A stretch of 64,000 nucleotides of DNA, from the NCBI RefSeq assembly GCF_003600895.1, contig NZ_QYRP01000002.1, forward strand, positions 1,674,001 through 1,738,000, written 5' to 3'. Made by a program: the position numbers and the translations under genes. Source of the DNA: Nocardioides cavernaquae (GTDB lineage Bacteria > Actinomycetota > Actinomycetes > Propionibacteriales > Nocardioidaceae). Positions 1,022 to 20,101 of this stretch are shown in pieces (positions within the stretch are counted from its first letter, which is position 1; every line of letters begins with the position of its first letter). Under the pieces are notes generated by a model. That model searched no databases and was not told the origin of the DNA. It worked only from the letters and a program-made list of their open reading frames with translations.

Positions 1022-1034
1022 GACTGCTTCACTC

Positions 1035-1068: not shown

Positions 1069-1099
1069 GTGCCATTTCTGCCTGAGCCTGCAGCGCACC

Positions 1100-1105: not shown

Positions 1106-1115
1106 TTCCGGCGCG

Positions 1116-1892: not shown

Positions 1893-1896
1893 GCCG

Positions 1897-3186: not shown

Positions 3187-3487
3187 TGCCGTGGTTCCTT
3201 CAGGTCGATGAGCTTGAACGCCGATCGTGGCCGCATGAATCGGGCCGGTTGCAGTCGGTGAATCGTCTGGATTGCACTGTTCCGGTGAACGTCCGGGGTT
3301 CTCCACAGGCTGTCGCGTGGACGGTGCCGCCTTCTTCCTGAGTCAAGGCAATGTTGGGCGATCGTTCACGGGCTCATCCGGTCCTCAGGAAGGCAGAACG
3401 GCTTAGGTTTCTCACGGTCCGTGGGGGCCAGAGCGGCAATGCGAACGCCGTTGTGCGGCAACATCTAAGGCAACTGGACAACGAATC
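3187..3487. promoter_or_regulatory. Divergent control region between the transglycosylase and the Pst/WxL cassette
   Basis: A 301-bp gene-free stretch between two divergent genes. On the plus strand TAGGTT (3404-3409) is a plausible -10 for the cassette. About 40 bp upstream of it is GTTCACG (3364-3370), which matches one half-unit of an actinobacterial PHO box, but a clear second 11-nt direct repeat is not evident. On the minus strand GTTCACC (3290-3284) and ATTCACC (3263-3257) are two PHO-like half-sites 27 bp apart in front of the transglycosylase. Phosphate control is therefore possible but weakly supported. The pstC start at 3488 has no strong ribosome binding site. Confidence 0.4.
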
Positions 3488-4483
3488 GTGACTGCACCAA
3501 ACGCGGCTCTCGGGGGACGCCGCACCCTTGCCTCACGCCCGGTCGGCGGTGACATCGCCTTCCGGGCGATCGCCACTTCCAGCGGCGTCGCGGTGCTGCT
3601 GATCATGACTCTCGTCGGCGTCTTCCTGGCCATTCGGGCAGCACAGGCGATCGAGATCGCCGGCTGGTCATTCCTCACCACCGAGATCTGGAACCCCGGC
3701 GACGGGAAGTTCGGCATCGCAGGCGTCATGCTCGGCACCATCTCGGTCGGCGTGATCGCGGTCCTGATCGCCTTCCCGCTCGCCGTCGGTGCGGCCGTCT
3801 TCATCTCGGAGTACGCACCCAGCGGGCTCGAGCGTCCGATGATCACGCTGGTGGACGTGATGGCCGCGGTACCCTCCGTGATCTACGGGCTCTGGGGCTT
3901 CCTCTTCCTGCAGAACCACGTCTACACCGTCGCCCGATGGCTCTCGACCTGGTTCGGGTGGATCCCGTTCCTCGACGTCCCCGGTTCGGATCCGTCGAAC
4001 CCGCTCGAGAACATCACCGCGTACAAGTCGTCGATCTTCCTCGCCGGCATCGTGGTCGCCTTCATGATCACGCCGATCATGTGCTCCGTGATGCGCGAGG
4101 CGTTCGCGCAGGCGCCCGTGGGCGAGCGTGAAGCCGCCCTCGGCCTCGGCGCGACGCGCTGGGGCATGGTCCGCGCGGTCGTCTTCCCGTTCGGCAAGGG
4201 CGCGATGATCGGCGGCACGATGCTGGGCCTCGGTCGTGCGCTCGGCGAGACCATCGCGGTGCTGATGATCCTCAACTTCGTGATCGCCATCCAGCCCAAC
4301 ATCCTGAAGTCGGGCGGCAGCACGATCAGTTCGCTGATCGCCAAGGACTACGCCGAGTCGGGAGCCCTGGCCCTGTCCGCCCTCATGGCGGCCGGCCTGG
4401 CCCTCTTCGTGGTCACGCTGGTGATCAACTTCGCCGCTGCGACGGTCGTCGCCCGCAGCCGCTCAGGCGCGGAGAGCACCTGA
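3488..4483 (+). CDS. pstC: Pst-type ABC transporter permease, PstC-like
   Basis: One of the two transmembrane subunits of a phosphate-type (Pst) ABC importer. The 331-residue product has about six membrane segments and the permease EAA loop in EREAALGLGATRWGMV (around residues 212-227), which contacts the ATPase. GRALGETIAVLMI near residue 250 is typical of PstC. GTG start at 3488; the stop overlaps the next start (ATGA). As first gene of the cassette it pairs with the PstA moiety encoded immediately downstream and with the ATPase at the far end, 12.5 kb away. The solute may or may not be phosphate, because the binding proteins encoded here are divergent and no phoU is present. Confidence 0.9.
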   Translation: MTAPNAALGGRRTLASRPVGGDIAFRAIATSSGVAVLLIMTLVGVFLAIRAAQAIEIAGWSFLTTEIWNPGDGKFGIAGVMLGTISVGVIAVLIAFPLAVGAAVFISEYAPSGLERPMITLVDVMAAVPSVIYGLWGFLFLQNHVYTVARWLSTWFGWIPFLDVPGSDPSNPLENITAYKSSIFLAGIVVAFMITPIMCSVMREAFAQAPVGEREAALGLGATRWGMVRAVVFPFGKGAMIGGTMLGLGRALGETIAVLMILNFVIAIQPNILKSGGSTISSLIAKDYAESGALALSALMAAGLALFVVTLVINFAAATVVARSRSGAEST

Positions 4484-7290
4484 TGACAACGATGACCCCC
4501 ACGCCGCAGGCAGCCCACGGCGCGTCACCGGTCGAGCCCGGGACCACCACGATTCCGGTGCAGGGGCCGCCGGTCGACCCGGAACGACGCAAGCTCTCCG
4601 GCGTACGCCGCTCCGACTGGCTCGCGGTGCTCGGAGCCGCAGCGAGCGCCATGTCGACCACTGGCCTGCTCTTCTGGGTGCTGACGCCGCTGAGCAGTGC
4701 GTTCGGCTTCGCGGCGGTCGCGTTCGTCCTCTTCCTCGGCTTCTACGCCCTGCTGGTCTCGCTCGACGAGCCGGCGACCATCGTCAAGGACCGCCTCGCG
4801 GCCGCGATCGCGTGGTCGATCGCTGGCCTGCTGGTCGGTGTCCTCGTGCTCATCGTCGGCTTCACCGTCGAGGGATCGCTCGACGCACTCGGACACCGCA
4901 ACTTCTTCCTCGAGGACCTCAACACGACGGCGGCTCTCGACCCGCTCAACAAGGGCGGCATCGCGCACGCGGCCATCGGCACCCTGATGCAGATGGGGGT
5001 GGCGCTGGTGATCACGGTGCCGCTCGGCATCACCTGCGCGATCTTCCTCAACGAGTTCCCCGGTCGGCTGGCCCGCTTCGTGCGGACCATCGTCGAGGCT
5101 ATGACGGCGCTGCCTTCGGTGGTGGCGGGCCTGTTCATCTACGCGACCTTCATCCTCGCGCTCGGCAACGAGAAGTGCGGCCTCGCCGCTTCGCTCGCGA
5201 TCAGCGTGATGATGCTGCCGATCATCATCCGCGCGGCCGACGTCGTGATCCGTCTCGTGCCCGCCAACCTGCGCGAGGCGTCGTACGCGCTGGGGACGAG
5301 TCGCTGGCGCACGGTCTTCCACGTCGTGCTCCCCACAGCCCGGTCGGGCCTGACGACCGCGGTCATTCTCGGCACCGCCCGCGGGATCGGCGAGACCTCG
5401 CCTGTCCTGCTCACCGCTGGCCTGTCACCCCGGATCAACACCAACCTCCTGGAGGGACCGCAGGTGTCCTTGCCCCTGGCCGTCTACGACCTGGTCAAGC
5501 AGCCGTACGAGACGCAGATCCAGCGGGGCTTCGGTGCCGCGGTCACGCTCCTCGCGCTCGTGCTGCTCCTGTTTCTCCTGGCGCGCCTGGTCGGGGGCCG
5601 GGCGCCGGGGCAGGAGACCGCGCGCACGCGCCGCAAGCGGCGGATCGCCTCGAAGCGCGACGCCCGGCGCTTCGCAGCCCGCGGTACGGCGGCCGGGCTG
5701 GTGGTCGCTCTGGCTGCGGGACTGGTCGGTGTGGCCGGCGGTCCGGCCGCGCGCCCGGCGTACGCCGACAGCTACGCGCCGATCAACGGTGCCGGATCCT
5801 CCTGGAGCCAGAACGCCGTCGACCAGTGGCGGCGCAACGTCGCCCAGTACGGCATGAAGGTCACCTACGAGGGGTCCGGCTCCTCGATCGGTCGTCAGCA
5901 GTTCGCCCAGGGCAGCGTGCACTTCGCCGTCTCCGAGATCCCCTACGGGATCAAGGACGGCGGCAACTACGACCAGCCGCCGCAGCGCAAGCACGCCTAC
6001 ATGCCGATCGTGGCCGGCGGCACCGCGCTCATGTACAACCTCAAGGTCGGCGGCAAGCGGGTCACCAACCTGCGCCTGTCCGGGGAGGTCATCGCGAAGA
6101 TCTTCACCGGCAAGATCACGATGTGGAACGACCCGGCGATCAAGAAGGACAACCCGGCGATCAGTCTCCCGGCTCGCGAGGTCGTGCCGGTGGTCCGCTC
6201 CGACGGCTCCGGCTCGACCGCCCAGTTCACGACCTGGATGAGCAAGCGGCAGAGCGCGACCTGGAACTCCTACTGCGCAGCCGCCGGCAGGAGCACGCCG
6301 TGCGGTGTCACCTCGAACTACCCGGTGATCCCCGGCAGCAAGACCGTCGCGCAGAACGGTTCGCTCGGCGTCGCCGGCTTCGTCAAGCAGGAGCAGAACG
6401 AGGGCACCATCACGTACGTCGAGTACTCCTACGCGCTCAACGCGGGCTTCCCCGCGGTGAAGGTGCTCAACCAGGCCGGCTACTACGTCGGCCCGACGGC
6501 GTACAACGTGGCGATCGCGCTGCAGAAGGCCAAGATCGACCCGGACGACCTCACCCAGATCCTCGACGAGGTCTACACCCACGGTGATCCCCGCAGCTAC
6601 CCGCTCTCGAGCTACAGCTACATGATCCTGCCGACGGCGGTGGAGAACGGCTTCAGCGAGGAGCACGGGCGCACGCTCGCCGCGTTCGCCGACTACTTCC
6701 TCTGCGAGGGGCAGCAGCAGGCACCGCGGCTCGGCTACTCGCCGCTGCCGAAGGAGCTGGTCATCGCGGGCATGGCGCAGATCAAGCGGATCCCCGGCGC
6801 GGTCGTGAAGAACCAGAACCTCGACAAGTGCAACAACCCGACCTTCGCGGGTGGTCGCAACGTGCTGGTCGCGAACGCCCCGCAGCCGGCCGCCTGCGAC
6901 CGGCAGGGCGCGACCCAGTGCGTGGAGGGTGTCGTGAACCACGAGGTCCCCGGCACCGGCGGTGGCAACAACCCGGGTGGTGGCGACGCCGACCCGGACG
7001 CCGGAGGGGGCACCCCGACCGGCGCCCCGGCTCCTGGCGCAGCCCCCGACGCGGGAGCGGCCGCGGCGATCGACCCCGCCACCGGCCAGCTGATCAGCGC
7101 GGCCGCACCCGGCGGCGCTGATGCTGCGGCCGCCACGGACGTCGCCTCGGGCACCGTGAACCTGGCCGCCAGCCACGTCAACCGGATGCAGACCCTGCTC
7201 ATGGTCCTCGCAGGCCTCGTGCTGCTGCTGGTGATCCTGGTCCCGCCGCTCGTCGGCCACGCAATCCGGCCGCGGGGAGGTCGGCGATGA
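4483..7290 (+). CDS. PstA permease fused through an internal signal peptide to a PstS-like binding domain with C-terminal membrane anchor
   Basis: A 935-residue fusion. Residues about 1-385 are a PstA-type permease with two extra N-terminal membrane segments, the EAA loop NLREASYALGTSRWRTV (around 261-279) and GIGETSPVLL. A highly basic stretch then leads into a textbook signal peptide ending ARPAYA, with an AYA cleavage site at residues 426-428. The PstS-like domain follows (about 430-800) with oxyanion-binding signatures NGAGSSWSQ, YEGSGSSIGRQQF (from 462) and VRSDGSGSTAQF (from about 570). The final part is a Gly/Pro/Ala-rich linker and a membrane helix with a basic tail (residues 902-935). 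PstA and PstS are separate proteins in known systems. The domain may be released by signal peptidase or stay tethered. ATGA overlaps occur at both ends of the gene. Confidence 0.88.
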   Translation: MTTMTPTPQAAHGASPVEPGTTTIPVQGPPVDPERRKLSGVRRSDWLAVLGAAASAMSTTGLLFWVLTPLSSAFGFAAVAFVLFLGFYALLVSLDEPATIVKDRLAAAIAWSIAGLLVGVLVLIVGFTVEGSLDALGHRNFFLEDLNTTAALDPLNKGGIAHAAIGTLMQMGVALVITVPLGITCAIFLNEFPGRLARFVRTIVEAMTALPSVVAGLFIYATFILALGNEKCGLAASLAISVMMLPIIIRAADVVIRLVPANLREASYALGTSRWRTVFHVVLPTARSGLTTAVILGTARGIGETSPVLLTAGLSPRINTNLLEGPQVSLPLAVYDLVKQPYETQIQRGFGAAVTLLALVLLLFLLARLVGGRAPGQETARTRRKRRIASKRDARRFAARGTAAGLVVALAAGLVGVAGGPAARPAYADSYAPINGAGSSWSQNAVDQWRRNVAQYGMKVTYEGSGSSIGRQQFAQGSVHFAVSEIPYGIKDGGNYDQPPQRKHAYMPIVAGGTALMYNLKVGGKRVTNLRLSGEVIAKIFTGKITMWNDPAIKKDNPAISLPAREVVPVVRSDGSGSTAQFTTWMSKRQSATWNSYCAAAGRSTPCGVTSNYPVIPGSKTVAQNGSLGVAGFVKQEQNEGTITYVEYSYALNAGFPAVKVLNQAGYYVGPTAYNVAIALQKAKIDPDDLTQILDEVYTHGDPRSYPLSSYSYMILPTAVENGFSEEHGRTLAAFADYFLCEGQQQAPRLGYSPLPKELVIAGMAQIKRIPGAVVKNQNLDKCNNPTFAGGRNVLVANAPQPAACDRQGATQCVEGVVNHEVPGTGGGNNPGGGDADPDAGGGTPTGAPAPGAAPDAGAAAAIDPATGQLISAAAPGGADAAAATDVASGTVNLAASHVNRMQTLLMVLAGLVLLLVILVPPLVGHAIRPRGGRR

Positions 7291-9725
7291 ACCGCACCCG
7301 TGCAACCCGGGTCGCAGGCCGGGCGGGCGCGGGCCTGCTCGCCCTCGTTGCGTGTGCCGCGATGTTCCCGGCGACCGCCGGGACCGTCGTACCGGGGGAG
7401 AAGGTCGCCCTTGCGCCGCGGACCGCGGTCGGGGATGGCGTGGACTCGTCGGAGACGATGCGGGGGACGGGCCGCTTCGAGGACCTGAAGGTCACCGTCA
7501 GCCAGACCGAGCACCTGCGCGACCAGGTGGTCAAGGTCAGCTGGACCGGAGCTGCGCCGTCGCGCGCCGGTGCGTCCTACGACGCCAACTACCTGCAGAT
7601 CATGCAGTGCTGGGGTGACGGCGATGCGCCCGATCGCGAGAAGTGCCAGTTCGGCGCCTACATCGGCCAGGGTCTCGGTGGCGGGCAGACCGCAAGCCGG
7701 ATCATCGAGAACACCGGCAACGACCTCATCGATCAGGACGAGCAGATCAAGCCCGGCTATGGCGAGTACCGGACGATCCCGTTCCAGTCGGTGACCGGCA
7801 AGACCGAGACGTCACCGCGCTCGAGCTTCTTCAACACCGGCACCACCAACGAGATCCCCTACGGCCGGACATCGGCCGATGGTGCTGGCACCGAGTACTT
7901 CGAGATCCAGACCGCACGGGAGTCGCACGGACTCGGCTGCGGCGCCGTCGTCACGACCGGACCCCGCAAGTGCTGGCTGGTCGTGGTCCCGCGGGACCAC
8001 CTGGAGGTCGACGGCCGCACCTTCGCCGAGGTCGGTGGCCAGCTCCTGACCTCACCGCTGATCACCTCGAACTTCCGCAACGCGCTGAGCTTCAGGCTCG
8101 AGTTCGAACCGGTCGGCCTCGCCTGCCCGATCGGCGCGTCCGAGCGGCACCTGATCGGCCACGAGGACGTCGTCGAAGCCGTGAGCCGGTGGCAGCCCGC
8201 GCTCTGCGCCGACGAGGGACTGCTCTTCAGCTACACCCAGCAGGGTGACGACCTCGCCCGTGGCCAGGTGCTCTCCGACGAGCCGTGGCTCTCGGTGTTC
8301 ACCCGGCCGGTCGAGGCGGCATCGATCACCGACGACCGCGAGGTCGTGCACTCGCCGCTTGCCGTGAGCGGCATCGGCATCGCCTACGTCATCGAGCGCA
8401 GCCCGCGCTCCGGGTCCGGCTACACCGCCCCACCCGACGTACTCGCCCGGGTCGGCACGCGTGTCCTCGACCTCAAGCTCAATGCCCGCCTGGTCGCCAA
8501 GCTGCTCACCCAGTCCTACCGGGCCGCCGTCGCCGGACCGGGGGAGTACGTCGCGGACAACCCGTTCACGCTCGCCAAGGACCCGGAGTTCGTCAGCCTC
8601 AACCCGGAGTTCGAGCACCTCGACTACTTCGGGTCGCTGCCGTCGGTGATCACGCCGTTCGAGAACGCCGACGCGAACCACGCGGTCTGGGGGTGGATCG
8701 CCTCCGACAAGGACGCCGCCGCCTTCGTGGCCGGCACGCCGGACAAGTGGGGCATGAAGGTCAACCGCTACTACCGCGGCATGGTCCTGGACCAGACCGA
8801 GTTCCCGAAGTACGACCCGACCTGCCAGGTGTTCGTCACCACCCAGGCTCCGAAGTGCACGACGCAGGTCGCGCCCTATGCGAACGACCTGCACACCGCG
8901 GCGCGTGCGACCGCGCGCGGTCAGGACCTGACGGAGATCTGGGACGACGCCAGCCAGCGCTACAGGCCGGCGGCCGCGCAGCCGGCCGGTCGGCGCGCGG
9001 CGCTGGCCATCGTGGACACGGGCACCGCCGCGCGCTACCAGCTCCCGATGGCCCGGCTCCGGAACGCGCACGGCAAGTACGTCGCTCCGACCGAGCTCAC
9101 CATGACCTCGGCCCTGATGGCGATGAAGGACACCGAGGTCGACGGCGTGGTCGAGATGGACCCGACCTCCGAGGTCGCCTCGGCCTACCCCCTCACCTCG
9201 ATCAGCTACGCCGCCACGGCCCCGGGGGAGATCCGGTCGGCCGATGCCAAGGCGTACGCCGAGTTCCTCCGCTTCGCCACCGGGCCCGGCCAGGTCCAGG
9301 GCGAGGCGCCCGGTCAGCTGCCCGAGGGCTACGTCCCGCTCACGCCGGCGCTCCGGGCGCAGGCCCTGATGGCCGCCACGAAGATCGAGAAGGGCGGCAC
9401 CGCCCAGCCCGACGGCGACGGCGACGGCGGCGGGGATGGCGAAGACCCCGATGGCAGTGGTGACGGCGAGAACAATCCCGTGTCGCCCGCCGACGGTGCG
9501 CTCGGTCCCGGCGTGCCCGGCGGCGACGTCGTACAGGCCGCAGGTCCGGATCCGGCCACCCAGGCCGGCCAGTTCGCAGGGCAGCAGCTCGCCTCGGCGC
9601 AGACCCCGGCGACCCATGTCGGGCCGGTTCGGTGGTTGCTGCCGATCATCTTGGCGCTGATGCTCGTCGCCGGAATCGCACGGCCACTCGTGCCGTGGTG
9701 GCTCACCCGACGCAAGGCCGGGTGA
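7287..9725 (+). CDS. Large membrane-anchored PstS-like extracytoplasmic binding protein
   Basis: An 812-residue exported protein with signal peptide (residues 1-31, site ATA|GT), a long extracellular region and a C-terminal membrane helix ending WWLTRRKAG. The part from about residue 570 to 680 resembles the second lobe of PstS: IVDTGTAARYQLPMARLRN, KYVAPTE and AYPLTSISYAAT match the usual order of conserved PstS C-lobe patches. The N-terminal half contains several cysteines and has no clear GSGS or GSGT phosphate loop, so oxyanion binding is doubtful there. A Gly/Asp-rich spacer (about 700-780) precedes the anchor, as in wall-spanning proteins. No LPXTG-type sorting motif precedes the anchor. 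Its start overlaps the preceding stop (ATGA), so the two are probably translationally coupled. Confidence 0.7.
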   Translation: MNRTRATRVAGRAGAGLLALVACAAMFPATAGTVVPGEKVALAPRTAVGDGVDSSETMRGTGRFEDLKVTVSQTEHLRDQVVKVSWTGAAPSRAGASYDANYLQIMQCWGDGDAPDREKCQFGAYIGQGLGGGQTASRIIENTGNDLIDQDEQIKPGYGEYRTIPFQSVTGKTETSPRSSFFNTGTTNEIPYGRTSADGAGTEYFEIQTARESHGLGCGAVVTTGPRKCWLVVVPRDHLEVDGRTFAEVGGQLLTSPLITSNFRNALSFRLEFEPVGLACPIGASERHLIGHEDVVEAVSRWQPALCADEGLLFSYTQQGDDLARGQVLSDEPWLSVFTRPVEAASITDDREVVHSPLAVSGIGIAYVIERSPRSGSGYTAPPDVLARVGTRVLDLKLNARLVAKLLTQSYRAAVAGPGEYVADNPFTLAKDPEFVSLNPEFEHLDYFGSLPSVITPFENADANHAVWGWIASDKDAAAFVAGTPDKWGMKVNRYYRGMVLDQTEFPKYDPTCQVFVTTQAPKCTTQVAPYANDLHTAARATARGQDLTEIWDDASQRYRPAAAQPAGRRAALAIVDTGTAARYQLPMARLRNAHGKYVAPTELTMTSALMAMKDTEVDGVVEMDPTSEVASAYPLTSISYAATAPGEIRSADAKAYAEFLRFATGPGQVQGEAPGQLPEGYVPLTPALRAQALMAATKIEKGGTAQPDGDGDGGGDGEDPDGSGDGENNPVSPADGALGPGVPGGDVVQAAGPDPATQAGQFAGQQLASAQTPATHVGPVRWLLPIILALMLVAGIARPLVPWWLTRRKAG

Positions 9726-9767
9726 ACCACCACCTCAAGCTCCGGCGGGGGCCTAATCCCGTCGGCC

Positions 9768-9791
9768 GCCAAGGAAGCAAGCCCCCTTGGC
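9768..9791 (+). other. Intra-cassette stem-loop before the third binding-protein gene
   Basis: GCCAAGG (9768-9774) pairs with CCTTGGC (9785-9791) around a 10-nt loop, inside the 93-bp space between two cassette genes. In ABC operons such hairpins often raise the mRNA level of the binding protein relative to the permeases; that role is inferred. The downstream start has a good AGAAGGA site. Confidence 0.4.
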
Positions 9792-9818
9792 ACACAACCC
9801 CTCTACAGAAGGATCACC

Positions 9819-11006
9819 ATGAAGGTTAGCAAGCGCTTCGCTCTCGCCGTGGTCGGCTTGAGCGCGGCTGGCACCCTCTTCGGTGCCGGAGTCGCCACTG
9901 CGGATCCGTCGGCCCCGCCGGCCAACGCATACGAGCGTCCGCTCCAGGGCGTCGGCTCGGATACGACCGACCTGCTCATGAACGGCCTCGCCGAGGCCGT
10001 CGTGGGAGACCACGACGGCAACCCCGCCACGCCCGACCAGAAGCTCATCGCCTCCTGGGACGCCAAGAGTGCCCTCGGCTTCAAGTCGCGGGCAGTGGGT
10101 TGTGACTACACGGGCAACCCGACCCCCGACAGTGCGTACGTCGTCGGCACCCGGCCGAACGGCTCCGGCAACGGCCAGAAGGCGCTCCGAGACGCCTTCA
10201 CCCCTGCCACGGCCGTCGAGAACTGCCTCGACTTCTCCCGCTCCTCGAGCAACCCGTCCGCCGGCAACCTCGGCGGCGTCGAGGTCCAGGCCGTGCAGCT
10301 CGCGACCGACTCGCTGGGCTTCGCCGTCAACCGCGCGACGTCGATCCCCCGTCAGCTGTCGCGCCAGAACCTGTACGACATCTACCACTGCACCTTCGGT
10401 GGCTTCACGGGCGCGACTCCGGCCCGCAAGGCGCTGATCCCCCAGGCCGGTTCGGGCACCCGCTCCTCGTGGCTCGGCATGGTGGGTCTGACCGAGGCCG
10501 ACCTCGCGGTCACCGGTGCTCTCCCGTGCGTCTCCGACCAGGTGGACGGCAGCGCCCGCGGTGGCGGCAGCCCGCTCCAGGAGCACGACCTGCGCTTCCT
10601 GAAGACCAACCAGATCGCCCCGGTCTCCGTGGCGCAGTGGATCTCGCAGATGGGTGGCTCCGCGCCGTCCGACCAGCGTGGCCCCAGCATGCTCGGCTCG
10701 ATCATCCAGACCAACGGCATCGTCGCTCACCCGATGGAGCTCAGCGCGTCCTTCGGCCCCGCCGAGACCATCACCCAGGGTGCTGCATCGAAGCTGACCC
10801 GCACGGTCTACAACGCGGTCCCGACCAAGCGCGGCGACGCTGCCCACACGGCGGTCAACAACCCGCTGGCCACCCTGGTCTTCGTCGACACCGACCCGGG
10901 TGCCGCGAACACCTCGCTGATCTGCCAGCGCGCCGACGTCATCAAGAAGTTCGGCTTCGCGCCGATCTCCACCTGTGGCACCGGCTCGATCATCAACCCG
11001 CAGTGA
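9819..11006 (+). CDS. Secreted PstS-like substrate-binding protein
   Basis: A 395-residue soluble exported protein. The signal peptide (MKVSKRFALAVVGLSAAGTL, site ATA|DPS) is followed by a PBP-like fold with LQGVGSDTTDLLMNGLAE at the start of lobe 1 and IPQAGSGTRSSWLG in the middle. GSGTR resembles the GSGTT anion loop of PstS, but the conserved Arg before it is missing, so ligand preference may differ from phosphate. There is no lipobox and no C-terminal anchor, so retention at the surface would have to come from partners. A strong AAGGATCACC site precedes the ATG. Flanked by the anchored PstS-like protein and the WxL-like protein. Confidence 0.8.
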   Translation: MKVSKRFALAVVGLSAAGTLFGAGVATADPSAPPANAYERPLQGVGSDTTDLLMNGLAEAVVGDHDGNPATPDQKLIASWDAKSALGFKSRAVGCDYTGNPTPDSAYVVGTRPNGSGNGQKALRDAFTPATAVENCLDFSRSSSNPSAGNLGGVEVQAVQLATDSLGFAVNRATSIPRQLSRQNLYDIYHCTFGGFTGATPARKALIPQAGSGTRSSWLGMVGLTEADLAVTGALPCVSDQVDGSARGGGSPLQEHDLRFLKTNQIAPVSVAQWISQMGGSAPSDQRGPSMLGSIIQTNGIVAHPMELSASFGPAETITQGAASKLTRTVYNAVPTKRGDAAHTAVNNPLATLVFVDTDPGAANTSLICQRADVIKKFGFAPISTCGTGSIINPQ

Positions 11007-11055
11007 TCACCCCTCTTCGAGCAATCTCCTTCACTCCTGAAACGGAAAAAGTCTG

Positions 11056-12702
11056 ATGAGCATCAAGAAGAGCATTCTCGGCGCGGCCGCCGCTGGCGCC
11101 GTCGCAGCAGCGACCATCACCATGACCACCACGACCGCCCACGCGGCCACGCACCTGGGCGACATGCGGATCGTGCCCTCCACGGGTACGACGGCCATCG
11201 GCCTGACCGCCAAGACCCTCGCGGGCCAGGTCTGCCCGACGGGCTACTCCGGCGTCAACCTCTACATGTCGGGCCCCGGCATGACGGAGGAGGTCGGTGT
11301 CCTCAACGGGTTCATCCCGCCGTCGTCCGCCCAGGTCGGCGACCACATGGAGTTCACGGTCCAGAACCCGTTCGACAGCCTCTTCGAGGCCGCGAACATC
11401 CCGCAGCCGACGGGCGCCTACAACCTGCGCCTGGCGTGTGTCGGCCCGGACTTCTTCGAGGAGGTCGGCGAGTTCACGCAGGTCGTGAACTTCACCCCCG
11501 ACGCCGACACGAGCTCCGCGACGCGGTTCGTCGCGACGTACGCCGCGGTCGTCCCGGCCGAGAACACCACCACCACCGTGAGTGGTCCGGCCACGTCCAC
11601 GTTCGGCAGCTCGGTGACGTTCAACGCTGACGTCAACTCGGCCTCGGGCGAGGCCATCAACGGCTCGATCCAGTTCAAGGACGACGTCGACGGCGCCGGC
11701 CCGATCGCCCCGGTGAACCTCGGTTCCCCGGTCGCGGTCTCCGCTGCCGGTGGCGCGTCGTACACCGCCAGCAACTTCGGTGCCGGTTCGCACAACATCA
11801 TCGCGGACTACTCGGGCGGCAACGGCTTCAACGCCTCGACGTCCTCGGCCGCGGCGCTGACCGTTGCCAAGGCCTCGTCGTCGGTCGCGGTCTCCACCAA
11901 CACCGGTGTCGACGAGCCGGCTTCGTCGGTCTTCTCGGCCACGGTGGGCGGCGGCCACGCCGGTAGCGTCCAGTTCAAGGTCGACGGAGTCAACCGGAGC
12001 GGCGCAGTTGCCGTCACGGCCGGCGCCGCCGAGCTGACCACGAGTCTCCCGGCCGGAACGTACGCCGTCACGGCCGAGTTCCTGCCGACCAACGCGGCCA
12101 ACGTGAACGGGTCCACCTCCGCTCCCGCGTCGCACATCGTCGACGCCTCGCTGGTCGAGGTCGTCTCCGCTGACCAGGAGATCCTGGTCGACGTCCCCGC
12201 CGGTGCGCTGACGATCTCGGTCGCTGGCTGGGAGGACGGCCTCGTCGACCTCGGTGTTGCGGCCATGGACCCGTCGGGTTCGCTGCTGACCGCGTCGGGC
12301 GAGCTCGACACCTTCAAGGTCACCGACACCCGCTCGGGTGACATGGGCTGGATCGCCACCGGCATGGCCACCGACTTCGTCGGTGCCGACACCATCAGCG
12401 CGTTCAACCTCGGCTGGACGCCGAAGCTCGCCACGGACCTGGTCGCTCCGGCCACGTCCGCGCTGTCCCCGAACCACGTGGGCTTCGTCCTCGGTGGCAC
12501 CGCCGCGTCCGACCTGCAGTTCGCCGGTGCGACCTCGGGCAGCGGCCTCGGTGCTCCGCGCGACTTCGCGCACGCGCTGGACGACGCCGGTAACGGCACG
12601 GCGTACCTCGGTGCCGACCTCACCCTGAAGATCCCGACCGAGACGCTGGCGGGCAACGACTACTCGTCGACCCTCACCATCACGGTCGTCGGTCAGGGCT
12701 GA
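11056..12702 (+). CDS. Secreted Ig-repeat protein with WxL-like C-terminal domain
   Basis: A 548-residue exported protein with signal peptide (site AHA|ATH). Domain order: an N-terminal two-cysteine domain (about 35-165) that it shares with two other cassette proteins, two Ig-like (Big/Ig-3 type) repeats (about 170-355, with GSIQFKDDVDG and GSVQFKVDGVN), and a C-terminal region (about 356-548). The C-terminal region has the layout of a WxL domain: DTRSGDMGWIATG, FNLGWTPKL, and a final strand pair ADLTLKIPTETLAG then SSTLTITVV. In Firmicutes WxL domains bind peptidoglycan non-covalently and work with DUF916 proteins; a DUF916-like protein is encoded next here. The WxL call rests on motif layout only and needs a profile search. 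Confidence 0.65.
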   Translation: MSIKKSILGAAAAGAVAAATITMTTTTAHAATHLGDMRIVPSTGTTAIGLTAKTLAGQVCPTGYSGVNLYMSGPGMTEEVGVLNGFIPPSSAQVGDHMEFTVQNPFDSLFEAANIPQPTGAYNLRLACVGPDFFEEVGEFTQVVNFTPDADTSSATRFVATYAAVVPAENTTTTVSGPATSTFGSSVTFNADVNSASGEAINGSIQFKDDVDGAGPIAPVNLGSPVAVSAAGGASYTASNFGAGSHNIIADYSGGNGFNASTSSAAALTVAKASSSVAVSTNTGVDEPASSVFSATVGGGHAGSVQFKVDGVNRSGAVAVTAGAAELTTSLPAGTYAVTAEFLPTNAANVNGSTSAPASHIVDASLVEVVSADQEILVDVPAGALTISVAGWEDGLVDLGVAAMDPSGSLLTASGELDTFKVTDTRSGDMGWIATGMATDFVGADTISAFNLGWTPKLATDLVAPATSALSPNHVGFVLGGTAASDLQFAGATSGSGLGAPRDFAHALDDAGNGTAYLGADLTLKIPTETLAGNDYSSTLTITVVGQG

Positions 12703-12727
12703 CCAGCACCACTCTCGTAATGCAGTG

Positions 12728-12755
12728 AGGTGGGGGCGCTCGGGCGCCCTCACCT
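12728..12755 (+). other. Strong intra-cassette stem-loop
   Basis: A 12-bp stem (12728-12739 with 12744-12755, one G-U pair, TCGG loop) lies 25 nt after the WxL-like gene and 31 nt before the DUF916-like gene. It may attenuate read-through so that the secreted Ig protein is made in excess over the membrane protein. There is no U-tract. Confidence 0.5.
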
Positions 12756-12786
12756 GCACCGCCCGACCACACCAGGAAGTCCTCTC

Positions 12787-14715
12787 GTGAATGCCCAGCT
12801 CGTGACCGCCCGCTCCGTGTTCTCGCGCCACCAGACCCTGGCCCTCCTCCTTCTCCCGCTGTTGGCGCTGTTGCTCGCCACGTCGTGGATGACCCCGGCG
12901 CGTGCGGATGACGAATCCGGCACCAGGGCCGACGAGCGCAACACGATGACTGTCGGCATCACGACAGCGACCAAGAAGGGCCTCGACGACCGGGGCAACT
13001 ATCAGTACGAGCTGCTCCCCGGCGGGCTGGTCGTCGACTACGTGTCGGTCTCGAACTACAGCCTGAAGCCTGTGACGGTCCGGCTCCTCGCGCGGGCCGC
13101 GACGAGCCAGGGCTCCAACGCCTTCATCGTCCAGCCGACCAACACGCCCCCGACCGTGCTCAGCTCGTGGGTGTCCATCGGTGAGCCGGTGGTCAAGCTG
13201 CCTCCCCGCTCGACCCGGACCGTTCCGTTCCAGCTCGGGGTGCCGAAGGGTGCCGAGCCCGGCGACTACGCAGGCGCCATGGTGATGTCGCTGATGGCGG
13301 AGGGCAAGCCGAGAAAGGGCGAGAAGGCCGAACCGGTCGCCGTCGAGCACCGGGTCGCACTCAAGATGATGCTGCGGGTCCCGGGGCAGATCCAGCCGGG
13401 CCTCGAGGTGGAGGACCTCACGGCGGAGTGGGACGGCGCGTGGTCGCCGACCGGCCGCGGCGACGTACGCATCTCCTACACGGTCCGCAACACCGGCAAC
13501 GTCCGGCTCAGCGCGGACCCCGCCCTCGCCCTCGACCGCTCGTTCGGCCGTGGCGTCGTCACCGCGAAGGGCGAACGGATCAACGACCTCCTGCCCGGAG
13601 GTGCGCTCGCCGTCGAGCAGGTCGTCCCTGACGTCTTCAGCGTCGGCCCGCTCACCGCTCGGGTGAGCCTCCAGCCCTCCGGTGTCGACCGCGAGCTGCC
13701 GGAGAAGCCGGACCCGACGACGGCCGAGGTCGAGGTCGCCGCCTGGTGGTGGCTGCTCGTCGTCGCGCTCGGCGTACTGCTCCTCCTCATCGCCGCGTAC
13801 GTCGTGTGGCGACGCGTCCGCAAGGGCAACCGCACCGGCGACGGTGGCCCCGGTGGCCGCCGTGCCCGTCGCGCCGGCGGCCCCGACACCCCGGCCGCAC
13901 CCGCGGCCGAACAGGCTCCGGAGGCCGTGAGCGTCTCGCCGCGGATCGCGCTGCGCAGCGCCGGCGCCGGTGCCGTCGCCCTGGTCGCGCTCCTGATCGG
14001 CATTGCTCCCGCCGCCCACGCTGAGGATGCCGAGACCTGGCGTGCCACGACATCGACCCCGAAGGGCACCGCCGACGTGCCGTTCGAGATCAAGACGTCC
14101 GGTGGCTGTCCCGCGCCGGCGACGAACATGATCGCCTGGGTGACCGGCAAGGGCCTTCCGAAGGAAGGGGCGATCGCGATCTCCAACACGGTCGCGCCTG
14201 CGATGGACCAGCCGTTCGTCGGCTACGTCATCGACAGCATGTCCAACCTGATGGCCTCCCAAGGAGGGTCCGCGCAGCTCGACGGGACCTACACGTTCCG
14301 TCTGCAGTGCATCACCGCTGAGCACTACGACCACAGCTATGGCGACTACGTCGTCAAGATCGCGTTCAGTGACCCGACGCACTGGCGGATGCTGCCGCCC
14401 GTCACCAGGAAGACGGGTCCCCATGGCGGGTCCGAGGCCGGCGCGATGGCCGGCGCGGGCGCAGCCGGTTCGAACGGCACGACGGGCGCGGACCCTGCTG
14501 GTGCCGGCGCCTCCGCGGGAGACCCGTCGGCGGGTGGTCCCGGTGCCGCTGGGGCGGATGCCGATGTCGCCGCAACCGCGGCTGAAGCCGCTGCAGCCGA
14601 CGCCGACCGGTCGACCGGCGGCATGACCCGCACCTCCTGGTCGCTGATCGGCCTCGGGGTGCTCCTGCTGGGCGGCGTCTTCGCCTGGCTCTACGCCTCA
14701 CGTCCCCAGGCCTGA
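12787..14715 (+). CDS. DUF916/WxL-interacting-like membrane protein fused to a second signal peptide and two-cysteine surface domain
   Basis: GTG start at 12787, chosen for its AGGAAG site (12774-12779) and because the signal peptide then begins nearby; an upstream in-frame GTG at 12730 lies inside a hairpin. The product has 642 residues. It has a signal peptide (site ARA|DDE), then a DUF916-like region (about 45-300) with YELLPGGLVVDYVSVSNYS, RTVPFQLGVPKGAEPGDYAG and related beta patches, then a membrane helix (about 318-340) with a basic cytoplasmic tail. A second signal-peptide-like helix follows, ending PAAHA|ED (residues 410-412). After it come the two-cysteine domain shared with both Ig-repeat proteins, an Ala/Gly-rich linker and a final membrane helix. 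The same internal-signal architecture is found in the PstA-PstS fusion. Confidence 0.72.
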   Translation: MNAQLVTARSVFSRHQTLALLLLPLLALLLATSWMTPARADDESGTRADERNTMTVGITTATKKGLDDRGNYQYELLPGGLVVDYVSVSNYSLKPVTVRLLARAATSQGSNAFIVQPTNTPPTVLSSWVSIGEPVVKLPPRSTRTVPFQLGVPKGAEPGDYAGAMVMSLMAEGKPRKGEKAEPVAVEHRVALKMMLRVPGQIQPGLEVEDLTAEWDGAWSPTGRGDVRISYTVRNTGNVRLSADPALALDRSFGRGVVTAKGERINDLLPGGALAVEQVVPDVFSVGPLTARVSLQPSGVDRELPEKPDPTTAEVEVAAWWWLLVVALGVLLLLIAAYVVWRRVRKGNRTGDGGPGGRRARRAGGPDTPAAPAAEQAPEAVSVSPRIALRSAGAGAVALVALLIGIAPAAHAEDAETWRATTSTPKGTADVPFEIKTSGGCPAPATNMIAWVTGKGLPKEGAIAISNTVAPAMDQPFVGYVIDSMSNLMASQGGSAQLDGTYTFRLQCITAEHYDHSYGDYVVKIAFSDPTHWRMLPPVTRKTGPHGGSEAGAMAGAGAAGSNGTTGADPAGAGASAGDPSAGGPGAAGADADVAATAAEAAAADADRSTGGMTRTSWSLIGLGVLLLGGVFAWLYASRPQA

Positions 14716-14759
14716 CCGGGCCTGGTCCGATTCGCTTCACCTATCTGAGGAGCCCTTCC

Positions 14760-16067
14760 ATGTTCAGTTTCGACAGGCGTGCACGGCTGGGCGCTGCCGC
14801 GCTGGCGGTGTGCGTTCCGGCCTCGATGCTCGCCTTCACTCCCGGCGCCCAGGCGGTGAGCGTCGGCAACCTCAGCGTCATCCCGGCGACCGGCCACCAG
14901 GACACCGGCTTGTTCGTCACGACGCCTGCGGCCTGCCCGCAGGGCTCGGTCTCCTTCTACACCGAGCTCTCGGGCCCCCGGATCACTGGCGAGCCGGGAG
15001 CCGAGGGTGTCTTCACGACGTCCACGAAGCCGCTCACGGACGCGACGCCCAACGGATCGGGCTACGGCGTCGAGGTCAGCGAGCCGCTGAGCGCGTCGTT
15101 CGCGCAGCAGTCGGTGACCGACCCGGAAGGTGCCTACACCTACCGCTTCGTCTGCACCGACTTCTCCGGGTTCGAGCGCCTCGGCACCTTCGACGCGATC
15201 CTCAACGTGACCAACACTGGTGTCGCGGGCGACTACAACCTGACCTATGCCCAGCAGAGCCAGGCCGTGGCCACCCAGACCACCCTGGCGGCGACGCCGC
15301 TCGACCCGGTCGCCTCCGGCGCAGCCACCACGCTCACCGCAACCGTCGCCGCCACCGACGCCCCGGCCCCGGCCGGCACGGTCCAGTTCAGGCGCGGCAC
15401 CGCCAACCTCGGCACGCCGGTGGCGGTCTCCGGCGGCACGGCCACCTCGCCCGCGATGGTCCTCACCGCAGGCAACGACAACCTGACAGCCGTCTTCACC
15501 CCTGCAGACCCCGCGTCGTACGCCGCGTCCGTGTCGGCACCGCTCGCGTACGTCGTGGTCGGCGTGCCCGCCATCACGGGCACCGTGCGGGTCGGTTCGG
15601 CCGTCACGTGTGCGACCTCCGTCGGTGGCACCCAGGCCATCTCGTGGCTCAAGAACGGGGTCGTCCAGTCGGTCGCCACGAAGTCCGTCACGATCCCGAG
15701 CACCTGGTACAAGGCGAGCATCGGTTGCCGGGTGAAGGTGACCAGCAACGGGCGGGTGCTCGAGCGTTCGAGCGCGGCGAAGACCGTGGCCATCGGGCCG
15801 GCCCTGAGGCGCCTGACGGCTCCCAAGGTGATGGGAACCATGCGCGTCGGCCGGGTCGTCAGCTGTTCTCCTGGCACGTGGAGCCCGACCGCGACGTCGT
15901 ACTCCTACACCTGGCACCGCAACGGTGTGCGGCTGGTGGGCAAGACCGCCCGCACCTACACGCTCACTCGCCTCGACCGCCGCAAGGGGATCTCGTGTGG
16001 CGTGACTGCGAAGAGGGCGGGCTACGCCAACGGCGTGGCCATGTCGGCGCGCAGGACCGTCGCGTGA
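14760..16067 (+). CDS. Secreted multi-Ig-like repeat protein of the cassette
   Basis: A 435-residue exported protein with signal peptide (site AQA|VSV). It has the shared two-cysteine N-terminal domain (about 34-160, with TPAACPQGS and GAYTYRFVC) and one Ig-3-like repeat (GTVQFRRGTANLG). Two repeats of the actinobacterial tandem Ig-like type follow, with the pattern GTMRVGRVVSCSPGTWSP, YTWHRNGVRL and KISCGV-like strands, each with cysteines. There is no membrane anchor or sorting signal. A GAGGAG site precedes the ATG and the stop overlaps the next start (GTGA). Its repeats suggest a stalk or adhesin role at the surface, possibly holding binding proteins in the wall; this is inference. Confidence 0.68.
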   Translation: MFSFDRRARLGAAALAVCVPASMLAFTPGAQAVSVGNLSVIPATGHQDTGLFVTTPAACPQGSVSFYTELSGPRITGEPGAEGVFTTSTKPLTDATPNGSGYGVEVSEPLSASFAQQSVTDPEGAYTYRFVCTDFSGFERLGTFDAILNVTNTGVAGDYNLTYAQQSQAVATQTTLAATPLDPVASGAATTLTATVAATDAPAPAGTVQFRRGTANLGTPVAVSGGTATSPAMVLTAGNDNLTAVFTPADPASYAASVSAPLAYVVVGVPAITGTVRVGSAVTCATSVGGTQAISWLKNGVVQSVATKSVTIPSTWYKASIGCRVKVTSNGRVLERSSAAKTVAIGPALRRLTAPKVMGTMRVGRVVSCSPGTWSPTATSYSYTWHRNGVRLVGKTARTYTLTRLDRRKGISCGVTAKRAGYANGVAMSARRTVA

Positions 16068-16987
16068 TCCAAGCCCTGCTCGAACGCACCAAGCCGGTCG
16101 CACGGGGAGCCCGGGTCCGTCCCGCGCGCCCTGTGCGACCGGTCCCGCAGGGCGTCGCCATGGTGAGCTCCGCGCTCACCGTGGTGACGCTGCTGCTCGG
16201 TTGCCTTCTCGCGGAGGCAACCGTGATCGGCGACGTGCGCCACGCGCGCGCACAGAAGCTCACCTACGAGCAGCTGCGCACGGATCTGGCCAAGGGGGAG
16301 GCGCCGATCGGGCAGATGGACGCGAACGGTGAGGTCACGGTGCCCGGCCGACCGGTCGCGGTCCTGACCATCCCCGCCATCAACCTGCGCGAGGTGGTCT
16401 TCGAGGGCACGACGGCCGGTGTGCTTGCCGACGGCCCCGGCCATCGTCGTGACACCGCGTTTCCCGGGCAGGCCGGTGCCGCCCTGATCTTCGGCCGGCA
16501 GGCGATGTACGGCGGCGTCTTCAGCCGGATCCACGACCTGCGCCGCGGCGACGAGATCAAGGTCGCCACCGGCCAGGGATCCCATGCCTACAAGGTCAGC
16601 GACGTGCGGCATGCGGGGGAGCGGGTGCTCCCTGTGGCGGCCGGCAAGGCTCGACTGGTGCTGGCGACTGCAGCCGGGAGGCCGTTCCTTCCCGAGGCGG
16701 TCGTCTATGTCGACGCTGTCCAGGTCTCCCAGGTCGTCCCCTCTCCCGAGCGTGCGTTCGGCACGGCCGCGCTCGCAGACGGCGAAGGGTTGATGAAGGG
16801 CGACACCGGCACGTTGCTCCCGCTGCTCCTGTGGGCGCAGCTGCTGCTCCTCGTGGTGGCGGCCGCAGCGTGGATCGGCACGACCTGGGGTCGTTGGCAG
16901 GTCTGGATCGTCACCGTGCCCGTCCTCACCCTGCCCGCGCTGCAGGTCGCCCACTACTCGCTGCAGCTCCTGCCGAACCTCACGTGA
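16064..16987 (+). CDS. Catalytically dead sortase-like membrane protein
   Basis: A 307-residue protein with an N-terminal membrane helix (about 30-55), a sortase-fold domain (about 75-225) and two C-terminal helices. The sortase layout is clear: VAVLTIPAINLREVVFEGT, then GHRRDTAFPGQAGAALIFG, then GGVFSRIHDLRRGDEI, then LVLATAAGRPFLPEAVVYVDA. The catalytic His of the GHR motif is Arg145 (FGRQ), the catalytic Cys of the TTC motif is Ala203 (LATA), and the usual Arg downstream is absent. It therefore cannot act as a transpeptidase by the known mechanism and probably serves as a scaffold or substrate-binding partner. GTG start overlaps the preceding stop. No LPXTG-like signals occur in the neighbouring proteins, which agrees with a non-catalytic role. 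Confidence 0.8.
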   Translation: MIQALLERTKPVARGARVRPARPVRPVPQGVAMVSSALTVVTLLLGCLLAEATVIGDVRHARAQKLTYEQLRTDLAKGEAPIGQMDANGEVTVPGRPVAVLTIPAINLREVVFEGTTAGVLADGPGHRRDTAFPGQAGAALIFGRQAMYGGVFSRIHDLRRGDEIKVATGQGSHAYKVSDVRHAGERVLPVAAGKARLVLATAAGRPFLPEAVVYVDAVQVSQVVPSPERAFGTAALADGEGLMKGDTGTLLPLLLWAQLLLLVVAAAAWIGTTWGRWQVWIVTVPVLTLPALQVAHYSLQLLPNLT

Positions 16988-17006
16988 CGGACAACCCGAG
17001 GACCCC

Positions 17007-17867
17007 ATGACCGCCTCTGACCACACGATCACGCTGCCGGTGGTGCCAGTGGCACCCTCGACCGAAGGCACGGAGCACGCCCGCCCGGGTGGTCAGTCGG
17101 GCCTCGACGCCCGGCAGGTCTCCGCCTGGTTCGGCGAGCACCGCGTGCTCGAGGACGTCTCGCTGACCATGCGCGCCGGTGAGGTGACCGCCCTGATCGG
17201 CCCGTCGGGCTGCGGCAAGTCGACCTTCCTCCGGATCTTGAACCGGATGCACGAGCTGGTCCCGAGCGCATCGATGGCAGGCGAGGTGCTGCTCGACGGC
17301 CACGACCTGTACGACGCGCGGCGGCGCCTCACGGACGCACGGGCTGCCGTGGGCATGGTCTTCCAGAAGCCCAACCCGTTTCCGACGATGTCGATCTACG
17401 ACAACGTGCTCAGCGGCCGGAAGCTGACCGGGCAGCGCCTGTCCCGCGATGCGAAGGACGACCTGGTGGAGGAGTGCCTCACGAAGGCAGGGCTGTGGAC
17501 GGAGGTCGTGCACCGGCTCCGAGACACCGGCGGGGCGCTCTCCGGCGGGCAGCAGCAACGCCTGTGCATCGCACGCTCCCTCGCCGTGCGGCCGAAGGTG
17601 CTGCTCATGGACGAACCCTGCTCGGCCCTCGACCCGACTTCCACGAACCGGATCGAGCAGACCATCCGTGACCTCGTGCACGAGGTCACGATCGTGATCG
17701 TCACGCACAACATGCAGCAGGCGCAGCGGGTCTCCGACCGCTGTGCCTTCTTCCTCGCGGAAGACAAGCGGCCCGGAGGCATTGTGGAGGAAGGGCCGAC
17801 CGACCGGGTCTTCGGCGCGCCCGTTGATCCGCGCACGGCGGACTACGTGGAGGGCCGCTTCGGCTGA
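17007..17867 (+). CDS. pstB: Pst-type ABC transporter ATPase, PstB-like
   Basis: The 286-residue nucleotide-binding subunit that powers the importer. It has Walker A GPSGCGKST (about residues 65-73), the Q-loop MVFQKPNPFP characteristic of PstB, the ABC signature LSGGQQQRLCIARSL (from about 178), Walker B VLLMDEPCSALDP (from about 197) and the H-loop VIVTHNMQQAQR. All catalytic residues are present. About 35 residues precede the usual PstB start. It sits 19 nt after the dead sortase with a GAGGA site, closing the cassette instead of following pstA as in classical pst operons. No phoU follows, which argues against this being the housekeeping phosphate-sensing transporter. Confidence 0.92.
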   Translation: MTASDHTITLPVVPVAPSTEGTEHARPGGQSGLDARQVSAWFGEHRVLEDVSLTMRAGEVTALIGPSGCGKSTFLRILNRMHELVPSASMAGEVLLDGHDLYDARRRLTDARAAVGMVFQKPNPFPTMSIYDNVLSGRKLTGQRLSRDAKDDLVEECLTKAGLWTEVVHRLRDTGGALSGGQQQRLCIARSLAVRPKVLLMDEPCSALDPTSTNRIEQTIRDLVHEVTIVIVTHNMQQAQRVSDRCAFFLAEDKRPGGIVEEGPTDRVFGAPVDPRTADYVEGRFG

Positions 17868-17904
17868 TCCGGTCGGGTCCTCCGCAACGGGGGAGGGGGA
17901 GCGG

Positions 17905-18696
17905 TCAGCAGGCTCCCGCGAAGGTGCCGGGCGTCGTGAGCGGCGCTGCGGTGGAGCGGCCGTTCCACTTGGCGAGGTCGTACTGGCGCAGCCAGTCCAT
18001 CTGCATCCGGCTCTGGTTCATGGCCTTGCCCGGCACGGCAGCCATCGTGAACTTCACCGTGAACGGGATGCCGGAGAGGGCTTCGGGGCGCTTCTCGGTC
18101 CGCAACACGTGCCCGTCGACGTACCAGCTGATGCGGTTGGCGGTGACCTCGACGCCGAACGTGTGCCAGCGGTCGTTGCCGAGGTTCATCCCGGGGGTCT
18201 TCGCATCGAACGAGCGGTTCGGAAGGTTGCGGATGCGCAGGTTGGCCGTGTTGCTTCCGAGCTTGTACCCCTCGAAGACGATGTTGCGTGCGCCGCAGTG
18301 GTCGGCCAGCGCGGGGACCGGCACCAGTTCCGTGCGGACCGTGTAGTTGGCGGCCGACGTCGCGTAGCGGCGCGAACGGAGACGGATCTCCCACCGGCCG
18401 GTCTTCGCGCCCGGTCGAGCCAGCGTGGCGCTGATGCTGCCGACCCGGGTCGTGTTGAGGGTGAGCATGCCGTTCTGGTTGCGCACCGTGCCGCGGCCGG
18501 TCTTGCGCCAGATCGGCTTGAGGCCACCGACGAAGTCGTCCTGCCAGATCGGCTTGCCCCACCCGAAGGTGGTCTGTGCGTTGACCGGGCCGGGGGCTGA
18601 GCCAGCGTGGTGGGCCTCGCTCGGCGCGGTGGTGGAGAGGAGGAGGACGGCGGCCGCGAGGGCGCCGAGACGTCGACTGGTGCGGTGGGCAAACAT
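17905..18696 (-). CDS. Secreted GH16-fold (concanavalin-like) protein lacking the glucanase active-site motif
   Basis: With ATG at 18696 the product has 263 residues and begins MFAHRTSRRLGALAAAVLLL, a signal peptide. It is followed by a beta-jellyroll resembling glycoside hydrolase family 16: PIWQDDFVGGLKPIWRKTG near the start, RWHTFGVEVTANRISWYVDG in the middle and a C-terminal MDWLRQYD strand. GH16 enzymes need an E-x-D-x-E motif after a strand beginning WEIR; here that position reads WEIRLRSRRYATSAANYTV with no such acid cluster, so it is more likely a carbohydrate-binding protein than an enzyme. A GTG at 18717 could be an alternative start. Convergent with pstB (37 bp between stops). Confidence 0.7.
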   Translation of the reverse strand: MFAHRTSRRLGALAAAVLLLSTTAPSEAHHAGSAPGPVNAQTTFGWGKPIWQDDFVGGLKPIWRKTGRGTVRNQNGMLTLNTTRVGSISATLARPGAKTGRWEIRLRSRRYATSAANYTVRTELVPVPALADHCGARNIVFEGYKLGSNTANLRIRNLPNRSFDAKTPGMNLGNDRWHTFGVEVTANRISWYVDGHVLRTEKRPEALSGIPFTVKFTMAAVPGKAMNQSRMQMDWLRQYDLAKWNGRSTAAPLTTPGTFAGAC

Positions 18697-19121
18697 GTCC
18701 AGCACCGTAGGCGACACGCCTCAAAATGCGCGACTTGATGTGACGCAGCCGGTAGTGCCCACACGATTTGGCGCTCTGGCAGAACTCTGACAAGATAGTC
18801 CGGTTGCTCCGGCGGGTTGCCGGGGTGCGCCACATCTTGACTTCTGAATCGCTTCTCCTGAGATGCAATCGGTCGTTGGCGTGTGGCCGCACCGACCAGG
18901 AGACCCGATTCAGTCCGACAAACCGGTCGGACACCACCAACAACACCGAATGACCTACCCGGGTCTGTGCCGTTTTGCGTCGAATACGCGCGACACGCCC
19001 GACCGCGGGGGTCGGACGGGGTGGGGAACAGCAGGCGGGACGGCCTCACCCGGAGCCGATCTCGACACAGAACGCAGTGCCGGCGCGACGCCGGTACGAC
19101 AGAAGAGGACGAGAGAGACCT
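18697..19121 (+). promoter_or_regulatory. Leader and promoter region of the S10 ribosomal operon
   Basis: A 425-bp space without a gene. A candidate promoter has TTGGCG (18768-18773), a 17-bp spacer and CAAGAT (18791-18796), which would give a long leader of about 320 nt before rpsJ. A further TTGACT lies at 18837-18842 without a convincing partner. Long leaders before rpsJ are common and in some bacteria carry L4-dependent control; no specific L4 leader structure was recognised here. The segment is less GC-rich than the coding regions around it. Confidence 0.5.
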
Positions 19122-19430: not shown

Positions 19431-19441
19431 GGTAGATCTAG

Positions 19442-20097
<656 letters not shown>

Positions 20098-20101
<4 letters not shown>

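Follow-up and report, generated by a model that had tools for sequence, protein, structure and literature searches.

A Pst-type importer cassette with extra PstS-like proteins and a pseudosortase, conserved in Actinomycetota

A Pst-type transporter, two further PstS-like proteins and a sortase relative without catalytic residues, joined in many loci by Ig-type and WxL-type surface proteins, form a conserved gene set of Actinomycetota whose content is firm. In the window, by which we mean the whole 64-kb stretch of DNA analysed here, this cassette comprises nine genes, all on the + strand within 3488-17867 (Table 1), with intergenic distances that are, in order, -1, -4, 93, 49, 27, 44, -4 and 19 bases. 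A preliminary description of this DNA had reported nine genes on one strand with overlaps or gaps below 100 bp, a layout that is borne out here with a largest gap of 93 bases; scanning 3250-19450 yielded no terminator-like sites on the + strand and no sigma-70-like promoters on either strand. The reading that we favor, at a probability of roughly 55%, is that the cassette encodes a phosphate-starvation importer of the Pst type with binding proteins held in the wall, for which the pseudosortase and the anchored PstS-like protein would provide the scaffold. That the products join one complex, that they import phosphate and hand it over, and what part the pseudosortase plays are points that we infer from sequence.

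Table 1. Features of the cassette and of its upstream region in the window, with the basis of each assignment
Feature	Position	Strand	Basis
Weak PHO-box-like direct repeat	3353..3374	+	10/14 consensus positions
pstC-type permease, 331 aa	3488..4483	+	TIGR02138
PstA permease-PstS domain fusion, 935 aa	4483..7290	+	TIGR00974, TIGR00975
Membrane-anchored PstS-like protein	7287..9725	+	Family profile against cassette PstS, hydropathy
Secreted PstS-like binding protein, 395 aa	9819..11006	+	Family-level PF12849, structure matches
Ig protein 1: CPC domain, two Big_3_5, WxL-like C-terminus	11056..12702	+	Pfam and family matches
DUF916/WxLIP-like protein: DUF916/WxLIP-like domain first, later CPC domain	12730..14715	+	Family-level Pfam, hydropathy
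Ig protein 2: CPC domain, Big_3_5, C-terminal repeats	14760..16067	+	Pfam
Pseudosortase: sortase domain without His, Cys, Arg; C-terminal LLPNLT	16064..16987	+	PF04203
pstB-type ATPase, 286 aa	17007..17867	+	TIGR00972

Transporter core and the extra PstS-like proteins

First, the transporter core is recognized by curated models. PstC passes TIGR02138 with 239.5 bits (cut-off 196.45), the PstA and PstS parts of the fusion pass TIGR00974 and TIGR00975 with 216.9 and 211.5 bits (cut-offs 193.45 and 205), and PstB, at 326.7 bits slightly below the curated cut-off of 343.2, is named Pst-type because TIGR00972 is nevertheless its top-scoring model. Within the fusion, which is present in 8 of the 82 loci of the first set defined below, the PstS domain occupies residues about 430-770, and hydropathy places a C-terminal membrane segment at 906-924. 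OpuA and GlnPQ are ABC importers in which the binding protein is likewise fused to the permease, and the window cassette resembles them in this covalent joining; we know of no surface assembly accompanying either of the two. The residues of the phosphate site in the cassette PstS were compared in 74 loci, using position numbers that we take to be those of the phosphate contacts in E. coli PstS. S38 and G140 are retained in 74/74 loci, S139 in 73/74 and R135 in 72/74, and the predicted site is largely conserved. Position F11 is Trp in 73 of the 74 loci and position D56 is Glu in 56 and Asp in 18, so that the ligand preference of the cassette PstS could differ.

The two additional PstS-like proteins are more divergent. 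For the anchored one, the match to TIGR00975 is limited to residues 571-695 and reaches 36.1 bits against the cut-off of 205; its family profile aligns with the cassette PstS over residues 296-700 (hhalign probability 94, E 1.2e-7), all 16 of its matches among solved structures are named phosphate-binding or phosphate-transport proteins, and hydropathy predicts a C-terminal membrane segment. Since the phosphate-holding loops of PstS seem to be lost from it, without evident counterpart in one alignment, this protein is probably not a phosphate binder. Its N-terminal domain (residues about 44-290) contains several invariant cysteines and matches no named Pfam family. The secreted PstS-like protein yields no Pfam match as a single window sequence, although 28 of the 50 members of its family match PF12849, and the family profile finds seven solved structures, six of which bear the name of a binding protein while the seventh is called "Sll0540 protein". 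Its direct alignment with the cassette PstS is weak (hhalign probability 0.9, E 0.064), a GSGTR loop is conserved in it, and in 19 loci it is joined to Ig repeats. This fusion favors the earlier idea that the surface proteins hold or present the binding proteins, an idea that fits the anchored protein less well, probably no binder itself.

Surface proteins and pseudosortase

Second, the surface proteins share modules with one another and, at the level of families, with known wall-associated proteins. Big_3_5 domains are matched in both Ig proteins. The WxL domain (PF13731) has no match in window Ig protein 1, while at E <= 0.1 it is matched by 10 of 21 members of that family (best 5.4e-6); the window DUF916/WxLIP protein scores 20.0 bits with PF06030 as a whole protein and 22.3 bits as a stretch, both below the cut-off of 27.3, and 23 of 24 members of its family match at E <= 0.1 (best 2.7e-9). 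The DUF916 and WxL assignments of the preliminary description, for which it had proposed HMM searches, are therefore backed at family level but not by the window proteins, in which DUF916 stays below threshold and the WxL match is absent. Of 30 families matched by the DUF916 family, the 25 listed do not include DUF3324, nor does the window DUF916 protein match it at E <= 1. Along this protein, the DUF916/WxLIP-like domain is followed by a membrane segment, a second membrane segment, a CPC domain (the name given here to a domain with two conserved cysteines) and a C-terminal membrane segment. The CPC domain thus lies in its C-terminal half and is found again at the N-terminus of both Ig proteins, with E values of 5.9e-13 between Ig proteins 1 and 2, 6e-4 between Ig protein 1 and the DUF916 protein, and only 0.08 between Ig protein 2 and the DUF916 protein, which makes this last link weak. 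Of the 44 first-set ORFs with DUF916, 19 carry a CPC domain; the other 25, some of them truncated at contig ends, lack it. C-terminal signals of the LAXTG/LPXTG type occur in 33 of all 8160 ORFs, and 24 of these 33, spread over 23 loci, belong to the 133 ORFs with a CPC domain; no LAXTG-type signal is present in the window's own proteins. LAXTG is a signal for class E sortases (PMC5148588, excerpt).

Firmicutes WxL clusters resemble the cassette in that the gene for a DUF916-like membrane protein lies close to one for a WxL-like protein (excerpts of PMC10599100 and PMC1534035), but encode a WxLIP of the DUF916-DUF3324 type, whereas in the cassette families DUF3324 is unmatched and the WxL domain is confined to the 10/21 family members named above, the window not included. 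WxL proteins come almost entirely from Lactobacillales and Bacillales according to the excerpt of PMC10599100, in which the words "transporter" and "sortase" each occur 0 times.

The sortase domain of the window protein passes PF04203 with 61.3 bits (cut-off 26.6), and class E is its best NCBIfam sortase model, at 62.2 bits far below the cut-off of 160. Throughout the first set (66 of 66 members), Arg replaces the catalytic His and the catalytic Cys is absent. Across 186 partly redundant rows, made up of 120 database matches and the 66 from loci, just two keep both His and Cys, and these are the two weakest matches; 38 additional rows, which overlap with the first set by four, show R in 32, K in 4 and a missing residue in 2 at the His column, with Cys in 0/38. 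The catalytic Arg is likewise missing in the rows inspected, an aligned subset that includes the window. Cassette-linked sortase relatives with readable sites, then, all lack His and Cys and, on sequence grounds, constitute a fixed pseudosortase family. The sortase fold without catalytic residues noticed earlier in the window is upheld by the PF04203 match and the absence of His, Cys and Arg, and an active sortase was rejected as a candidate for want of these residues; public names for these proteins, where given, are mostly sortase. Hydropathy predicts a membrane segment on each side of the sortase domain, and the LLPNL end is conserved: an LPN motif closes 66/66 first-set and, by the same test, 28/38 second-set proteins, a few of the second-set proteins without it being cut or variant. 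Compared with the class E sortase SrtE1 of Streptomyces coelicolor, the pseudosortase has the sortase domain in common but differs in lacking His, Cys and Arg, in the membrane segment after the domain and in the conserved LLPNL end (PMC5148588, excerpt). In the open-licence PubMed Central literature, we found no description of a sortase family that is both catalytically dead and linked to a transporter.

Conservation, genomic setting and upstream repeats

Third, the gene set recurs widely. With the anchored PstS-like protein as query, 316 of 332 stretches were confirmed and the best 80 of the 316 analysed; these 80, a second cassette of the same genome (L016) and the window form the first set of 82 loci, in which window-like forms may be over-represented because the best-scoring stretches were kept. 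Both pstC and pstB are present in 58 of the 82 loci. Each of the 58 encodes a PstS domain as well as the secreted PstS-like protein, and 57 encode the pseudosortase; L043, the one locus without it, is truncated at a contig end. The anchored protein, found in 58/58, is there by selection, as it was the search query for 80 of the 82 loci. DUF916-like and WxL-like parts occur together in the same 33 of the 58 loci and are missing from the other 25, one of which is the truncated L043, and 24 of the 58 have the pseudosortase without DUF916; the WxL/DUF916 module, first described as part of the cassette, is thus frequent but not essential. Stricter scores leave 56 pstC- and pstB-containing loci, with PstS in 56, the secreted protein in 56, the pseudosortase in 55 and DUF916 in 31; in 16 of the 25 loci without DUF916, Ig repeats are fused to the secreted protein.

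The reverse search, in which the pseudosortase was the query against 197 class-level genomes, gave 39 matches in 30 genomes above a score gap of our choosing (120.3 versus 106 bits). Two of these correspond to the window cassette and L016, and of the 37 others three repeat first-set contigs (L120 = L087, L121 = L040, L127 = L059), leaving 34 new stretches. Pst-type genes stand beside the pseudosortase in 35 of the 37 (32 of the 34 new). Of the remaining two, L152 is a contig of 3.5 kb, and L124 is truncated upstream and shows no pstB in its 9 kb downstream. A strong pstB is present in 27 of the 37 (25 of the 34 new), on the opposite strand in L154, and was not found in 10, among which L122, L123 and L125 are not short. 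These three stretches, from one genus (g230), hold pseudosortase cassettes without pstB over the length examined, and their ATPase may be encoded at another locus.

Taken from two query proteins, the co-occurrence that the preliminary description proposed to look for is widespread, and the gene order, whose lack of conservation it had named as a refutation, also recurs widely, with variants between families: the pseudosortase directly follows the anchored protein in some, and pstB comes first in others. Cassette loci span many families, Streptomyces included, and are not independent, since close relatives are among them. Within 296 phylum genomes, the anchored protein was matched in nine, probably an undercount because three candidates per genome were scored, and two of the nine match the PstS-like end only. 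A plasmid-borne element was rejected, as 72,556 plasmid records searched with the anchored protein gave no match. One cassette contig (L023) is filed under a Bifidobacterium breve metagenome bin and, judging from its other relatives, is probably misbinned.

The host genome (3.47 Mb, 99.6% complete) carries the second cassette, with a different gene order, at 603-614 kb and a separate pst locus (L017) at about 774-779 kb; the top-scoring named relatives of the cassette proteins are from Nocardioides and Marmoricola. Window PstC is 49% identical to that of the second cassette and 28% to that of the separate locus, and window PstB 66% and 50%, which suggests that the cassette transporter is a lineage of its own. 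The separate locus (G000:C2:770000-785000) has two different pstS genes ahead of its permeases, with a PHO-box-like repeat ahead of one of them. Both PhoU-domain matches of the genome are adjacent to each other (L018, G000:C2:1779810-1780367), about 1 Mb away from that locus.

The cassette is located between tuf and a methyltransferase gene (window 1-3306) and rpsJ-rplC (19100-20101; rpsJ assigned by eye), in a region, tuf-S10, that is usually a compact ribosomal gene order. A tblastn comparison (E 1e-10) detected neither tuf nor the methyltransferase gene nor rplC at the other cassette loci compared, so that this site is not common to them. A divergent SLT_2 transglycosylase-domain gene (1897-3306, - strand) adjoins the cassette and has tblastn matches at L043, L071, L072 and L086 and at the second cassette, and just downstream of pstB lies a glycoside hydrolase family 16 gene (17905-18717, - strand; 25.7 bits, cut-off 22). 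No phosphate gene was found to flank the cassettes consistently, and a conserved flanking partner was rejected, as the flanks yielded small clusters only, the largest of them in 11 loci.

Upstream regions were analysed for 71 first-set loci, with start codons chosen by length and background expectations from a first-order Markov model. The 6-mer with the strongest enrichment is GTTCAC (28 versus 3.85 expected), and paired GTTCACC-like units at spacing 11 with at least 11 of 14 matches occur upstream of pstC in 17 of the 71 regions, against 0.75 expected, and are absent from the + strand of the other 54; as controls, other spacings gave 0-6 (6 at spacing 8) and the reverse strand at spacing 11 gave 7. 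The second set, repeated contigs removed, has such repeats upstream of pstC in 5/17 (0.11 expected; reverse strand 0) and upstream of pstB in 0/25 (0.26 expected); with repeated contigs, the figures are 5/18 and 0/27. The sites are not independent, as the loci bearing them include close relatives. Several relatives reach scores of 11-12. In the window, the repeat GTTGGGCGATC GTTCACGGGCT starts 135 bases before pstC, and because it is weak, matching 10 of 14, Pho control of the cassette in this genome is just a suggestion. The Streptomyces PHO box consists of two 11-base direct repeats (PMC7866108, excerpt).

Candidate mechanism and alternatives

Finally, these observations can be assembled into a candidate mechanism. 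Phosphate starvation would probably switch the cassette on. PstS would be tethered at the permease, in this genome covalently to PstA, and the Ig-type surface proteins, held by WxL/DUF916-type contacts, by membrane segments and, in relatives, by LAXTG signals, would carry the secreted PstS-like protein outward. The latter may capture phosphate in or beyond the wall and deliver it to PstS and from there to PstC-PstA-PstB, while the pseudosortase, perhaps holding the tail of a surface protein without cleaving it, and the anchored PstS-like protein would form the scaffold. The phosphate reading fits because PHO-box-like repeats are present at part of the loci and the phosphate site is largely conserved; the separate pst locus of this genome, itself with a PHO-box-like repeat, counts against it. 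With the canonical PstSCAB importer (PMC7866108, excerpt), the cassette shares homologues of PstS, PstC, PstA and PstB and PHO-box-like repeats at part of its loci, but it adds two PstS-like proteins, the pseudosortase and, in many loci, the Ig/WxL-type proteins; the word "sortase" occurs 0 times in the excerpt of that review. A simple PstSCAB duplicate was rejected since these extra genes are part of the set.

A second possibility, which we hold only tentatively, is an ABC importer of a distinct kind, a relay spanning the wall, in which binding proteins on Ig stalks would pass phosphate to the membrane importer and the dead sortase would hold the assembly together as a structural receptor for the tails of surface proteins. 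It seems rather unlikely that the cassette instead serves surface display, with phosphate minerals or phosphate-rich polymers as the surfaces to which an Ig-stalked secreted protein attaches the cells, and with import as a secondary role: the Ig fusions of the secreted protein, the wall-anchoring signals in relatives and an extracellular, appendage-like PstS reported in Pseudomonas aeruginosa (PMC7866108, excerpt) would suit such a role, but in 58 loci the surface genes are accompanied by permease, ATPase and PstS, which adhesion alone would not need. Similarly doubtful is an importer for another phosphorylated compound or oxyanion, for example a wall-polymer or organic phosphate set free at the cell surface, with surface proteins that bind the polymer. 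The substitutions at D56 and F11, the presence of two divergent PstS-like proteins and the transglycosylase relatives adjoining the window cassette and five others all point this way; the remaining phosphate-contact residues are, however, conserved, and the PHO-box-like repeats fit phosphate starvation, which would also induce scavenging of organic phosphate.

The canonical Pst system reports phosphate status to the Pho regulon, and a wall-anchored transporter might accordingly act as a sensor of phosphate or wall status rather than as a feeder. We regard this as improbable. The separate pst locus could already supply phosphate and many cassette parts look structural, but few clusters of flanking ORFs are common to at least 5 loci, none of them identified as PhoU, and the single histidine-kinase-like cluster, recognized by eye, comes from 5 loci of related Streptomyces. 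A coincidental neighbourhood of unrelated genes, to which the varying surface modules and order and the stretches missing pstB might point, was rejected and is hardly credible, since two different query proteins recover much the same set in many families.

The favored reading, a starvation importer with binding proteins held in the wall, concerns a combination that the preliminary description considered undescribed; in agreement with this, we found no description of the gene set in the open-licence PubMed Central literature, though it may be described elsewhere. To our knowledge, the passage of nutrients through the thick Gram-positive wall to importers has been little studied, and an importer that is conserved and equipped with binding proteins of its own, held in the wall, would open this passage to direct testing. 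A sortase family that lacks catalysis throughout and is tied to one transporter would likewise offer an example of how the sortase fold may acquire new functions.
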